Assembly (NCBI GenBank): GCA_021784575.1
Contig: JAJYHX010000007.1
Coordinates: 1-64,000, forward strand
Length of the DNA: 64,000 bases
From: Nitrospirota bacterium
GTDB lineage: Bacteria; Nitrospirota; JACRHJ01
Direction: 5' to 3'
Each line of letters begins with the position of its first letter. The first letter of the stretch is position 1. Under the pieces are notes generated by a model, which worked only from the letters and a program-made list of their open reading frames with translations, did no database searches and had not been told where the DNA came from. Below are positions 16,299 through 31,842 of the stretch, piece after piece. A program made the translations under genes and the position numbers.

Positions 16299-17777
16299 AT
16301 GCGTGTTCTGCTGGTGGATCCGCCGCATGAGATATTCAAGTTCTTCAGGGGCAGAATGCCCGCTCCTTCCCTGACGGCGCTTGCGGCGTATATCGAAAAA
16401 GATTTTGATGTGCGCGTCATCGACTGCACCGTGCAGGAGCGGCCCTGGGCCGCGCTCGAAGACGCTGTGCGCGAGTTCAAACCCGCTGTTGTGGCCATAA
16501 CGGCCATCTCCACCTCGTATATTTACGACGCCATGAACGCGGCATACCTCGTGAAGCTTGTTGACCCGTCCGTCATTACCGTCGGCGGCGGAGTCCATAT
16601 GAGCCTCATGCCGGAGGAGACGCTTCGGAAATGCCCCAGCCTCGACTATATCGTGATGGGCGAGGGTGAACTTACACTGATGGAGTTCCTGAAGGCGGTC
16701 GAGGAAGGCGGGAAGAATTTCGGCGACATTCGCGGCCTGGTTTTTCAGAGCGGCGGCGCGGTTCACATCGGAGAGCGGCGCGAGCTTATCCCGGATCTGG
16801 ACACGCTTCCGCTCCCGGCGTATCATCACTTCCCGATGAATAAATATCTAATGCCATCACTGGGAATGGCGACACATAATTCGATTGTCTTGACTACCGC
16901 GCGCGGCTGCGAAGGCGTGTGCACGTACTGCACCGAGGCAAAGCTCTGGCGCAGCACATGGAGGCCGAAGTCCGCGCCCCGCGTGGTCGAGGAGATGGAA
17001 CTGCTATACAAAAACCATAATAAATATTCATTTATGTTTGGCGACGACTCCTTCAACTGGAAACGCGAACGTGTTGAGGACTTCATCCGGGAGTTGGAGA
17101 AGAAAAAACATCCCTGGCATTTCTGGTTCCAGTCGCGCGCGGAGCATATCGTCCGCGACGCGGACTTGCTCCCGAGGCTTAAGAAGCTTGGGCTTTACAT
17201 GATCTCTATGGGCGTGGAGACGCCGTCCGAGAACGCGCTCAAAAATTATCACAAGAAGCAGACGGCGGAGATTTCCATACAGGCGATGAAGACCATCAAG
17301 AAGAACGGCCTGCTCCTCATCACGAACATCATGTTCGGCGACATCGACGACACGGAAGAAACGCTTCAGCAGACGATAGATTTCGCAAAGCCATACTCCG
17401 ACCACTTCGCCATTTGTCTCACGACGCCGCTCCCCGGCACGGAATACTGGAAGCGCGCGAAGGAGCAGGGGCGCATAAAGGTCTGGGACTACTCCAAGTA
17501 TGACATGCTCAATCCCGTGATGGACACGCGGACGCTCTCGGTGGAAAAAATCGCCGAGATTCATCCGAAGTCGATACAGAAATTCTATTCGCGTTTCCGC
17601 GTTTTCTGGGACGCATATTTTTCGCCGAACCCGTATCTCCGCAAGAACAACCGGTTCTTCGTCAAGGTCGCCTGGGAGACCATAACGCACAAGCCCTGGG
17701 TGCAGAAGAACTACGTGCCGTTCGAGAAATACATGGAGGAGAAAACGGGAAGAGTATTTGAGAGGGTGCATTTTTAA
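16299..17777 (+). CDS. B12-binding-domain radical SAM protein (paralogue of 14619)
   Basis: A 492-residue B12-type radical SAM enzyme: a cobalamin-domain N-terminus (VGGGVHMSLMPEET), CxxxCxxC in RGCEGVCTYC near residue 201, and GVETPSENALKNY in the barrel. The N-terminal 100 residues align nearly gap-free with the preceding protein (both begin MRVLL-DPPH and share an RV-DCTV segment). It lacks the C-terminal zinc ribbon. The reaction is unknown. Its stop overlaps the next ATG by one base (TAATG). Confidence 0.85.
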   Translation: MRVLLVDPPHEIFKFFRGRMPAPSLTALAAYIEKDFDVRVIDCTVQERPWAALEDAVREFKPAVVAITAISTSYIYDAMNAAYLVKLVDPSVITVGGGVHMSLMPEETLRKCPSLDYIVMGEGELTLMEFLKAVEEGGKNFGDIRGLVFQSGGAVHIGERRELIPDLDTLPLPAYHHFPMNKYLMPSLGMATHNSIVLTTARGCEGVCTYCTEAKLWRSTWRPKSAPRVVEEMELLYKNHNKYSFMFGDDSFNWKRERVEDFIRELEKKKHPWHFWFQSRAEHIVRDADLLPRLKKLGLYMISMGVETPSENALKNYHKKQTAEISIQAMKTIKKNGLLLITNIMFGDIDDTEETLQQTIDFAKPYSDHFAICLTTPLPGTEYWKRAKEQGRIKVWDYSKYDMLNPVMDTRTLSVEKIAEIHPKSIQKFYSRFRVFWDAYFSPNPYLRKNNRFFVKVAWETITHKPWVQKNYVPFEKYMEEKTGRVFERVHF

Positions 17778-18637
17778 TGGATAATGTATGTGCGTATCTT
17801 GATATTTTAGGATTCAAGAATCACATTAAGGAAGACCCTCTTGCCGCGTCTAACCTTTTGTCTGAATATACTTCAGTCATTGGGAATTTGGGGGTTGGTG
17901 GGAAATATAAATCATTCAATTATTTTTTGCCTTTTAGTGATGGCATATTTATTCAATCAAATGACCCGTCAAAATTTGTTTTTGATTTATCTAAATTCTT
18001 AGTTGAGAGTTTCTTGAAAAATGGTTTTGGCAATATTATTGTCGAACGAGATAATCATTCCCCTGTTGTTGATGAAACTAAATACACGGAATTACCAGGG
18101 CGACGTCCGCTTCTTTTCAGAGGGGGTGTTGCTTATGGTGATTCTGTACCGAAACGTGTTAGTTGCATTTATGATAACAAACTTGAATATAAGCATTCTT
18201 TGATAGGAGAAGCGGTTGTAGAGGCTGTTGCATTGGAAGGAAAAGGGAGAGGTCCGAGGGTGTTCTGTTCGGGGAAATTTTACGAATCTTTAGATGACAA
18301 TGCAAAAAGATTAGTCATTAATCAGTTTGATGATGAAGAAGGAAAGAATTATGAAATAATATGGCCTGCGAGTTTTTTTACAGAGAATGGTTTTTATGAA
18401 TCTTATTACGAATTTGATAGGTTATTTATCTCATCGAGATTATCTTGGAAAGCCTTTAACCACAAACAATATGGAATTAATTATTATAATTTCCTTAAAC
18501 TTATTGTATTAAGCGGACTGCACTTTTGGGGAGGGTCTCCGGAAAACTTGGCAAGCGTAAAAAGGTATATAGAACCGGGTTTAACGAAAGCTTGTTTGCA
18601 AAATAAAAGGGATGACTTGTTTATGGGTTTTAAATAA
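17777..18637 (+). CDS. AT-rich class III nucleotidyl-cyclase-like protein, unannotated family
   Basis: A 286-residue protein with strikingly AT-rich codons compared with its neighbours, so probably acquired by transfer. I know no name for it. The motif layout matches class III cyclases: AYLDILGF (Asp9) at the first metal site, PFSDGIFI (Asp55) at the second, 46 residues apart, then FRGGVAYGD like the IGIHTGxV strand, then LIGEAVVEAVALE aligned with GDTVNxAxRLE. The Asn and Arg that stabilise the transition state are replaced by Val and Ala, so activity is uncertain. It could be a divergent cyclase or a binding pseudoenzyme. A one-base overlap with the upstream stop couples its translation to the operon. 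Confidence 0.55.
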   Translation: MDNVCAYLDILGFKNHIKEDPLAASNLLSEYTSVIGNLGVGGKYKSFNYFLPFSDGIFIQSNDPSKFVFDLSKFLVESFLKNGFGNIIVERDNHSPVVDETKYTELPGRRPLLFRGGVAYGDSVPKRVSCIYDNKLEYKHSLIGEAVVEAVALEGKGRGPRVFCSGKFYESLDDNAKRLVINQFDDEEGKNYEIIWPASFFTENGFYESYYEFDRLFISSRLSWKAFNHKQYGINYYNFLKLIVLSGLHFWGGSPENLASVKRYIEPGLTKACLQNKRDDLFMGFK

Positions 18638-18645
18638 GGAATTAA

Positions 18646-19992
18646 ATGAAAATTCTAATCATCTCCCCTGAGGGCCGGCACACGGCGGTCGGAAAAAAAT
18701 TCAAGTTTCCGTTTCCGACCGCGGGCGCGCCGATGGTGGCCGCGCTGACGCCGGAAGGACACGACGTAAAGATAATCGACGAGATCGTCGAAGATATAAA
18801 TTTCGACGAGCCTGCGGATTTGGTCGCAATTTCATCCATGACGCCGATGGCCTCTCGCGCGTACGAGATTTCCGATGAGTTCAGGAAGCGCGGAGTGGCG
18901 ACGGTAATCGGCGGGATACATCCGACGGCTTGCCCGGAAGAGGCCGCCGAACATTCCGACGCCGTGATAGTCGGCGAGGCGGAAGACCTCTGGCCCAGGG
19001 CGGTCGAGGATTTTAAGAGCGGCGGTTTACAGAAATTCTACAAGAAGGATTACCTGCATTCGCTTACCGGACTGCCGAGGCCGCGCTGGGAGCTTCTGCG
19101 CACTGATAAATATTTCCCGATTACTATCGTCGAGACATCGCGCGGATGCCCGCACAACTGCGACTTTTGCGCCGTCACGAATTTCTACGGCGGGAAATAC
19201 CGCGTGCGCCCGGTGCCCGAAGTCGAGAAAGAAATACAATATCTCTACGACCGCCCGGCGCTTACCGGTTTGAAGCGCTTTTCCACACCATATCCGAAGG
19301 GCATGATATTCTTCGCGGACAGCAACATCACGGCGAACAGGAAATACGCAAAAGAACTTTTCACGATGCTCGCCAAATACAAAATCCCCTGGCAGAGCTA
19401 CTCGACAATCTCAATCGCGGACGACCCGGAGCTCTTGAAACTCGCGCAGGCGTCAAACTGCGTCGGGCTTGCCGTCGGGTTTGAATCGCTCTCCGGAGAA
19501 AACTTAAAGAAAATCGGCAAGGGATTCAACAAGCCGGAGAAGTATGCCGAGTCGATAAAGAAACTGAAAGAACACGGCATCGGCATCATCGCGAGCTTCA
19601 TATTCGGCCTGGACTGGGACGATGTCGGCGTATTCGAGAGAACAAAGAAGTTTATTGACGACAACAAAATAGATTCGTCTTTCTTCCTCATTTCAACTCC
19701 TCTTCCCGGGACGGGATACAGGCAGAGGCTTCTTGACGAGGGACGCATATTCGACCATAACTGGGATCATTACGACTGCACGCACGTCGTTTTTCAGCCG
19801 AACCTCATGACGCCGGAACAACTCTCCGAAGGCGTATACTGGTTGTGGCGAGAGACTCTGTCGCATAAATCGATTTGGATGCGTCTTTACGGCGGGCCGC
19901 AGTTCATGTTCTATCTTGGCATGAACTACGCGATGAAGATGCTGGACAAGAAAATACATCCGAAACATTCAAAAAACCCGGCTGAAACTTGA
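18646..19992 (+). CDS. B12-binding-domain radical SAM protein (second pair, first member)
   Basis: A 448-residue B12-type radical SAM enzyme. The N-terminal B12-like domain includes VIGGIHPTACPEEA and HSDAVIVGEAEDLW. CxxxCxxC lies in RGCPHNCDFC near residue 165, followed by a YGGKYRVRP segment. It resembles the next protein (shared SMTPMA, RKRGV, VIGG-H and HSDAV-VGEAED blocks) and is more distant from the first pair. It may install a methyl group or a ring on the chain, but no specific reaction is supported. It begins 8 bases after the AT-rich gene and its stop overlaps the next TTG start. Confidence 0.85.
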   Translation: MKILIISPEGRHTAVGKKFKFPFPTAGAPMVAALTPEGHDVKIIDEIVEDINFDEPADLVAISSMTPMASRAYEISDEFRKRGVATVIGGIHPTACPEEAAEHSDAVIVGEAEDLWPRAVEDFKSGGLQKFYKKDYLHSLTGLPRPRWELLRTDKYFPITIVETSRGCPHNCDFCAVTNFYGGKYRVRPVPEVEKEIQYLYDRPALTGLKRFSTPYPKGMIFFADSNITANRKYAKELFTMLAKYKIPWQSYSTISIADDPELLKLAQASNCVGLAVGFESLSGENLKKIGKGFNKPEKYAESIKKLKEHGIGIIASFIFGLDWDDVGVFERTKKFIDDNKIDSSFFLISTPLPGTGYRQRLLDEGRIFDHNWDHYDCTHVVFQPNLMTPEQLSEGVYWLWRETLSHKSIWMRLYGGPQFMFYLGMNYAMKMLDKKIHPKHSKNPAET

Positions 19993-30972: not shown

Positions 30973-31842
30973 ATGATTTTGAAGCGAAAAGATAATCGAG
31001 AACTCGATGCCTTCAAGCTTGAGCAATTGCTCTTATTGTCGCTGACGGCGGAGCAAAAATTTCTGATTGAGCGTGAACTGAAATGGTTGCGTGCAGGCGA
31101 GAAAGGGGAAAAAGACTCCGCTTATTTCCTCGATTTCAGTTTTCAAGATTCCAATAAAGCGATTGTTATACATGATCTTCGTCTTGAGCACTTTGGACAG
31201 GTGGCCCAGATTGACCATCTTTTGATTAATCGGTTGCTTGAGTTTTATATTTTGGAATCAAAAAATTTCTCTTATGGAGTCAAGATAAACGATACCGGTG
31301 AATTCATGGTCTGGGACGTAAGGGGGTATAAAGGAATCAGATCTCCGATAGAGCAAAACAAGAGACATTTAAAACTGCTGCAAAAAATAATAAATGCAAA
31401 TGATATAATGCCTAAAAGGTTGGGGATAACTTTAACACCTTCTTTTAAGAGTTATGTTATCATTTCTCCAGCATCACGGATTATTCGGCCTCGCGCTTCC
31501 AAGTTTGATACCGGTTCGGTTATTAAGGCCGACATGTTTGCTTCAATGTATGAGAATGAACTTTCAATGCCAAAAGATATTATTGCGGTAGCAAAGATTG
31601 TTTCTGCCGAGACTGTCATTGGCATTGGAAAAAAGCTGATAAAGCTTCACAAACCTAACAATATAAATTATTCGGCGAAATTTGGCATAAAAGAAAAGTC
31701 GGCTAACATCTGTGCAGAGTGTGGGGCCAAGGTTTCTGAAAGGGTTTATAAATATTGCCATGAAAACAAGAAATTCTTCGACGGCAGAGTGGTATGCTAT
31801 AAATGCCAGGATTTAATAAAACAATCAAAACAGATTGTATAA
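30973..31842 (+). CDS. NERD domain protein with C-terminal zinc ribbon
   Basis: A 289-residue protein. The NERD (nuclease-related) domain occupies about residues 32-150: GEKGEKDSAYFL, then IVIHDLRLEH, QIDHLLINRL with the Asp, and YILESKNFS carrying the E-x-K pair of restriction-endonuclease-like folds. The C-terminus has a CxxC...C...CxxC zinc ribbon (about 247-281). The gene is clearly more AT-rich than its neighbours, suggesting transfer. NERD proteins are predicted nucleases; some are linked to phage defence, but no partner gene is next to it. Confidence 0.8.
   Translation: MILKRKDNRELDAFKLEQLLLLSLTAEQKFLIERELKWLRAGEKGEKDSAYFLDFSFQDSNKAIVIHDLRLEHFGQVAQIDHLLINRLLEFYILESKNFSYGVKINDTGEFMVWDVRGYKGIRSPIEQNKRHLKLLQKIINANDIMPKRLGITLTPSFKSYVIISPASRIIRPRASKFDTGSVIKADMFASMYENELSMPKDIIAVAKIVSAETVIGIGKKLIKLHKPNNINYSAKFGIKEKSANICAECGAKVSERVYKYCHENKKFFDGRVVCYKCQDLIKQSKQIV

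Follow-up and report, generated by a model that had tools for sequence, protein, structure and literature searches.

An inserted gene of foreign composition encodes a predicted cyclase homology domain protein that keeps the metal site and lacks the cyclase-specific residues

Introduction

What is an AT-rich gene for a cyclase-like protein doing between two radical-SAM genes? The question is raised by positions 17777 to 18637 of the window, i.e., the whole 64,000-nucleotide stretch that was analyzed; the gene, its parts, and both flanking genes lie on its + strand. The gene encodes a protein of 286 residues with an ATG start, referred to here as P0001. Signaling by cAMP, by cGMP, and by the immune signals cUMP and cCMP depends on class III cyclase domains, and the initial annotation of this DNA had proposed that the product might be an unusual nucleotidyl cyclase, perhaps related to phage defense, or else a binding pseudoenzyme. 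Here, we examine the insertion site, the predicted fold, the active site, and the genomic surroundings of the relatives of P0001.

A foreign gene at the junction of two radical-SAM genes

The P0001 gene has a GC content of 0.351 and a GC3 of 0.289, as compared with averages of 0.569 and 0.702 for a set of 20 further genes located at 8 to 34 kb of the window. The corresponding z-scores are about -8 for GC and about -11 for GC3, in agreement with the sharply different composition that had been pointed out before. The gene is flanked by two genes assigned with Pfam to B12-binding radical SAM proteins, namely rSAM1 upstream (16299 to 17777) and rSAM2 downstream (18646 to 19992), in a region where genes for ketosynthases, FAD enzymes, thioesterases, and radical SAM proteins follow one another. 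At the 5′ junction, the A of the P0001 ATG is the last base of the rSAM1 TAA, which is the TAATG overlap already recognized in the initial annotation. At the 3′ junction, rSAM2 starts at 18646, 8 bases past the P0001 stop, and is preceded by AAGGAATTAA. Promoter-like matches within the gene were set aside, because AT-rich DNA raises such matches. B12-binding radical SAM paralogues are numerous in the genus, with up to 13 matches to rSAM2 per genome (E<=1e-10; G000 and same-genus genomes).

In two genomes of the same genus (G031 and G039) the gene is missing at this site, as expected for a precise insertion between operon genes; 17771 is joined directly to 18643, and rSAM1 and rSAM2 overlap at ATGA. 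Relative to these empty sites, the inserted segment spans 17772 to 18645, with a left edge that is accurate to a few bases only, and it supplies its own TAA to rSAM1 as well as a ribosome-binding-like AAGGA ahead of rSAM2. G022 lies outside the comparison, having no close rSAM2 orthologue (best 44%). P0001 had no match at E<=0.01 in any of the four other same-genus genomes searched. The insert consists of the P0001 gene alone and is too short to hold a mobility gene, and its edges carry no convincing terminal inverted repeats or target duplication. That the P0001 gene is a real insertion, foreign by composition, is thus well supported.

A different gene occupies the same junction in a third congener, G003 (locus L103, G003:C28:20000-35000). 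This gene is also AT-rich (GC 0.38) and unrelated to that of P0001; it begins MKITAIGSCFSGF, starts on the rSAM1 stop, encodes 275 amino acids, and ends about 26 bases inside rSAM2. Its protein has no Pfam match at E<=0.01 and no homologue on the plasmids searched. The bases directly 5′ of rSAM2 are alike in G000 (AATAAGGAATTAA) and G003 (AATTAAGGATTAACA). This likeness could reflect a shared insertion followed by exchange of the cargo, or it could simply be a ribosome-binding site.

Relatives of P0001

Relatives were gathered with two degenerate DNA patterns. Of 29 viral stretches matched by the generic pattern, 8 carry a gene for a relative; the pattern for F-x-Y-F-[LIMF]-P-F-x-D matched 50 genome stretches, with 11 encoding a relative and the remaining 39 being chance matches that provided the control pool. 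The resulting alignment, A5, has 19 rows; row L063 is a fragment, and L035 was dropped as the same protein as L021. The family is large and unnamed in the libraries searched, and is marked by the motifs D-[IL]-L-G-F, F-S-D-S, R-G-G, and G-x-A-[LV]-x-x-A-x-x-x-E. Close relatives come from MAGs or isolates labeled Chitinophagaceae, Nitrospinota, Aminicenantes, Salinivirgaceae, Bacteroidales, Fibrella, Dyadobacter, Symbiothrix, Bacteroidetes, and Neomarinimicrobiota. They are solitary genes with no recurring partner. A homologue on a Fibrella plasmid is 35.5% identical to P0001 over 98%.

With P0001 itself as query, tblastn against phages found no relative, and searches for related loci in genome contigs and viral contigs gave no match that tblastn confirmed. 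Two weak matches were not counted as relatives, one inside a glycosyltransferase-like ORF (L002) and one in a frame with two stops (L003). P0001 alone matched no family or chain in Pfam, NCBIfam, PADLOC, or PDB sequences, and in PHROGs it matched only PHROG 23933 (E 0.0028, residues 2-20). Among the 19 family members, one matched Guanylate_cyc (PF00211) weakly (E 0.0053), and none matched the DUF2652 Pfam profile at E<=5. The PADLOC models Csx19 and NsnC were each matched by one of the 19 (E 0.003 to 0.008), which we take to be chance.

Predicted fold

An AlphaFold2 model of P0001, built from the A5 alignment, has a pLDDT of 86.8 and a pTM of 0.87. Foldseek retrieved 102 PDB matches at E<=0.001, and the best 50 of the 102 are nucleotide cyclases, their domains, or fusions. 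The top match is 8jsz, the Anabaena uridylate cyclase of a Pycsar system (E 1.6e-6, query TM 0.47). In VIA, a comparison that covers essentially residues 1-202, the best match is 7yz9 (Z 16.8, rmsd 3.0 over 163 residues), and the scores of many class III cyclases differ by less than Z 1. Almost every row stops near residue 202, and a few reach about 250. Although first by Foldseek E-value, 8jsz is absent from the top VIA rows, and the 50 rows listed include no Pycsar, DUF2652, GGDEF, or Cas10 chain, an absence that proves nothing.

The modeled structure of P0001 is therefore well supported as a class III cyclase homology domain (CHD) fold with a helical tail, which bears out the fold expected in the initial annotation. 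The CHD, as delimited by the VIA rows, comprises residues 1-202 (17777 to 18382). It is followed by a C-terminal helical region, residues 203-286 (18383 to 18634), in which DSSP assigns long helices to residues 205-227, 233-251, 255-271, and 275-285 of the model. The search with a model of the distant member L021, built from alignment A9 (pLDDT 74, pTM 0.70), likewise led to class III cyclases (best E 1.5e-5), and the predicted CHD fold thus appears to be common to the family. Such a fold, shared as the models have it, carries no information on activity.

Sequence profiles point the same way less strongly. When the 19-row A5 profile was compared with PDB chains, adenylate cyclases came first, at individually weak E-values of 0.009 to 0.09 for the best seven; the 12-row profile of the close subfamily (A6) found no cyclase at E<=10. 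Poliovirus polymerase matches of the two profiles (E about 1) were taken as chance.

Active site and conservation

The two metal-binding aspartates of class III cyclases correspond to D9 (codon 17801 to 17803) and D55 (17939 to 17941), which are 46 residues apart, the spacing first read from the sequence. HMMER pairs the family segment V-a-f-l-D-i-L-G-F with V-L-F-A-D-I-V-G-F of adenylate cyclase, and G-k-A-v-v-e-A-v-e-l-E with G-D-A-V-N-V-A-S-R-M-E, both at weak stretch scores. In P0001 the latter segment, the GDTVNxAxR-like one of the initial annotation, reads G144-E-A-V-V148-E-A-V-A152-L-E. By this pairing, the transition-state Asn is replaced by V148 (18218 to 18220) and the transition-state Arg by A152 (18230 to 18232). 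The model places D9 toward the end of strand 2-10 and D55 in the hairpin of strands 49-53 and 56-61, with V148 and A152 both in helix 145-154. These placements are those expected of a class III domain.

Conservation was assessed over 33 relatives, comprising the 19 A5 rows, 4 proteins from other searches, and 10 plasmid proteins; L116 and L117, with truncated or split frames, were excluded. D9 and D55 are each Asp in 33 of 33. Other kept positions are E154 (31/32), R115 (30/32), and G144 (30/32), and all 32 rows have Y or F two residues ahead of D9. By contrast with this invariance, the Asn position is V, I, or L in 26 of 32 rows and Asn in 2; at the Arg position, 3 of the 32 rows have Arg, 4 have Lys, and 9 have Glu. 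That is, both cyclase residues have been lost family-wide; the substitutions reported in the initial annotation are present in P0001, but they are not peculiar to it. The position that reads the base (D55-4) is L51 in P0001; all 12 A5 rows of the close subfamily have a hydrophobic residue there, and several plasmid relatives have a polar one. When 198 columns were ranked by entropy over 32 rows, D9, L11, and D55 were the top three, the Arg column was 166th, and the base-reading column 124th. Thus, the metal site is the most constrained part of the protein, unlike the cyclase-specific residues, and we regard this as our main result. This conservation argues for the handling of a metal and a nucleotide by P0001, as a prediction from sequence. 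In the last helix, where the alignment is loose, residue 277 is Lys in 29 of 32 rows, and this Lys might be functional in the family.

Genomic context of relatives

Several relatives have neighbors of a defense type. One adjoins an MmeI-type R-M (restriction enzyme) gene (L038), another is beside an Eco57I/N6 methylase (L087), and a third is beside a TIR/NB-ARC protein (L047). P0003, in genome G106, adjoins a DUF6079 protein, a domain known from BREX-like systems. The relative at L086 is beside a type I specificity gene, with a gene farther on that is weakly Mrr-like (below the Pfam cut-off). This last interval (L086:65-8000, a Bacteroidetes MAG) is type I R-M-like. Its specificity gene and an HsdR-like ORF enclose the cyclase-fold gene, the Mrr-like gene, and two ORFs that resemble BRO-N and GIY-YIG, the HsdR, BRO-N, and GIY-YIG names having been assigned by eye.

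The neighborhoods were compared with those of 22 control loci, drawn at random from 30 full-length chance matches; proteins >1300 aa were left out, one locus (L070) yielded no protein, and L078, a near copy of L048, was excluded from the neighbor count. At E<=1e-10, PADLOC models of 109 families matched among 45 neighbor proteins of 10 relative loci, versus 7 families, none of them R-M, among 126 proteins of the 22 control loci; such counts are inflated because one protein matches many models. Counted per locus, R-M genes occur at 3 of 10 relative loci (by Pfam) and at none of 22 control loci (by the PADLOC models), giving roughly P = 0.02 (Fisher, by hand) with a small control.

Broader relatives were found in 42 plasmid records, and all 30 of those listed are labeled "hypothetical protein" or similar, or are unannotated. 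Twelve of the 42 regions were examined, apart from the comparison with control loci. In 5 of the 12, a named defense or toxin-antitoxin gene lies within 5 kb (Dsr1; AbiEii with an ATPase/UvrD pair; AbiEi/AbiEii; HipA; VapC); the other 7 have none, and two of these are copper loci. As for members in viral contigs, L019 lies between structural genes, L035 near a prophage end, and L022 beside a cytosine methylase-like ORF, with gene functions judged by eye in all three. No recognized defense gene is adjacent to P0001 itself, whose neighborhood is the radical-SAM, ketosynthase, and FAD-enzyme cluster.

Interpretation

Computation supports the insertion, the fold, the invariance of both metal aspartates, the absence of the cyclase-specific residues across the family, and the mobile context. 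To explain them, we propose that the P0001 gene is a horizontally acquired single-gene insert whose product is a divergent CHD protein with metal-dependent nucleotide handling, non-canonical chemistry, and probably an association with defense; we give this proposal about half of our confidence. P0001 would dimerize head-to-tail like other CHDs and bind a nucleoside triphosphate via two metal ions that D9 and D55 coordinate. The loaded site would then drive a reaction, or a gated binding event, that needs neither the Asn/Arg pair nor the usual base-reading residue, and the C-terminal helices would relay or execute the outcome. If the helices provide the output, no partner gene would be needed in cis. 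The gene probably acts as a mobile accessory against phages or other mobile elements. The conserved metal site favors metal and nucleotide handling, while the dimer, any catalysis, and the role in defense, the last two suggested in the initial annotation, are steps that we infer.

Known systems resemble P0001 in part. With class III nucleotidyl cyclases (Guanylate_cyc, PF00211; Rv1625c, CyaC, Cya2), it shares the CHD fold and the two metal aspartates, and its family has the R-x-G and G-x-x-V-x-x-A-x-x-x-E segments in common with them. Unlike these enzymes, however, P0001 has no Pfam match, lacks the transition-state Asn and Arg, belongs to a close subfamily without a polar base-reading residue, and has an added C-terminal helical region. 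Judged from the sequences, the loss of the Asn, the Arg, and the polar base-reading residues argues against ordinary cyclization. The Pycsar cyclases PycC (8jsz, 7r65) have the same fold, both metal aspartates, and defense settings, as in the P0001 family, but their base-reading residues differ from those of P0001. EaPycC reads its base with F100, which precedes the first Asp (D102) by two residues, and with R142 and Q144, which precede the second Asp (D146) by four and two residues, respectively (PMC11224242, in the part available).

No paper on the P0001 family was found in CC-licensed PMC full text, and the available parts of PMC13092281 and PMC10270631 have no bearing on it. The claim that no described family has this combination of residues is nearly right, in that there is no convincing Pfam match, but a cyclase-like family with Ile in place of the Asn has been known since 2016. 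This family, DUF2652, consists mostly of stand-alone soluble proteins that keep both aspartates, and its mycobacterial members have Ile for the Asn and keep the Arg (PMC4886424, in the excerpt available). The two aspartates are common to both families, and a hydrophobic residue at the Asn position is common to P0001 and those mycobacterial members, which differ from P0001 (A152) in keeping the Arg. In the published text searched, DUF2652 is the nearest idea, and the present family is different.

The metal site also bears on whether P0001 is an enzyme at all. Possibly, and this is the main rival to our proposal, it is a catalytically dead pseudoenzyme, in which the CHD binds a (cyclic) nucleotide with metal and serves as a sensor, a sponge, or the heterodimer partner of a true cyclase. 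The Asn (N in 2/32) and Arg (R in 3/32) positions are not conserved, the residue at D55-4 is hydrophobic in P0001 and its close subfamily, and some members come from viral contigs that resemble prophages, a setting in which a nucleotide sponge would be of use. Loss of metal ligands is common among pseudoenzymes, however, and two aspartates invariant in 33 of 33 relatives exceed the usual needs of mere binding; because neither is ever lost, we rank an enzyme somewhat above a pseudoenzyme. A true Pycsar-type NMP cyclase, with other residues stabilizing the transition state and an effector encoded elsewhere, appears improbable. Foldseek retrieved both AnPycC (8jsz) and BcPycC (7r65), in an order of E-values that does not set Pycsar apart, and in VIA several class III cyclases lie within Z 1 of each other. 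Published Pycsar cyclases keep the two metal aspartates and vary in base-reading residues (PMC11224242, in the part available), but P0001 matches no PADLOC model even at E<=5. Moreover, the insert is one gene between radical-SAM genes, with no receptor and no PycTM/PycTIR-like effector alongside, and a Pycsar-type system is less likely for that reason.

The remaining alternatives concern the gene rather than its chemistry. It shares the direction of the radical-SAM operon, and its start overlaps the upstream stop, so that it might be a functional part of the pathway, e.g., a regulator; given that two congeners lack it, that a third has an unrelated gene in its place, and that relatives elsewhere have unrelated neighbors, we regard this as very unlikely. 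Hardly credible is a transient, decaying foreign ORF without function: the sporadic distribution and atypical composition would suit it, but the frame is intact, the family invariants are kept, and the similarity to the Fibrella plasmid homologue extends over nearly the full length.

A bolder form of the preferred reading, which we put forward as doubtful, is that these genes constitute a widespread, hitherto undescribed one-gene anti-phage class, in which the two-metal site of the CHD would make or consume a nucleotide without 3′,5′-cyclization and the protein's own helices would provide the output. In this genus, single AT-rich cargo genes would come and go at one constant stop/start overlap of a conserved operon, which would serve as a minimal landing site devoid of mobility genes. 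Were the preferred reading true, a broad mobile family in which the metal site is kept and the cyclase residues are systematically lost would mean that having the CHD fold and being a cyclase are two different things. It could also bring to light a new reaction of nucleotides, or a new sensor for them, in the conflict between phages and their hosts. That two unrelated single genes occupy one operon junction offers a clean case of the entry of lone defense-type genes into chromosomes without visible mobility genes.

Elsewhere in the window, at 30973-31842, is a second AT-rich single gene (GC 0.383, GC3 0.403), which encodes a NERD nuclease-related domain (Pfam E 1.4e-17). It is missing in four of four same-genus genomes, where its flanks are about 64 to 127 bases apart, versus 985 in the window.
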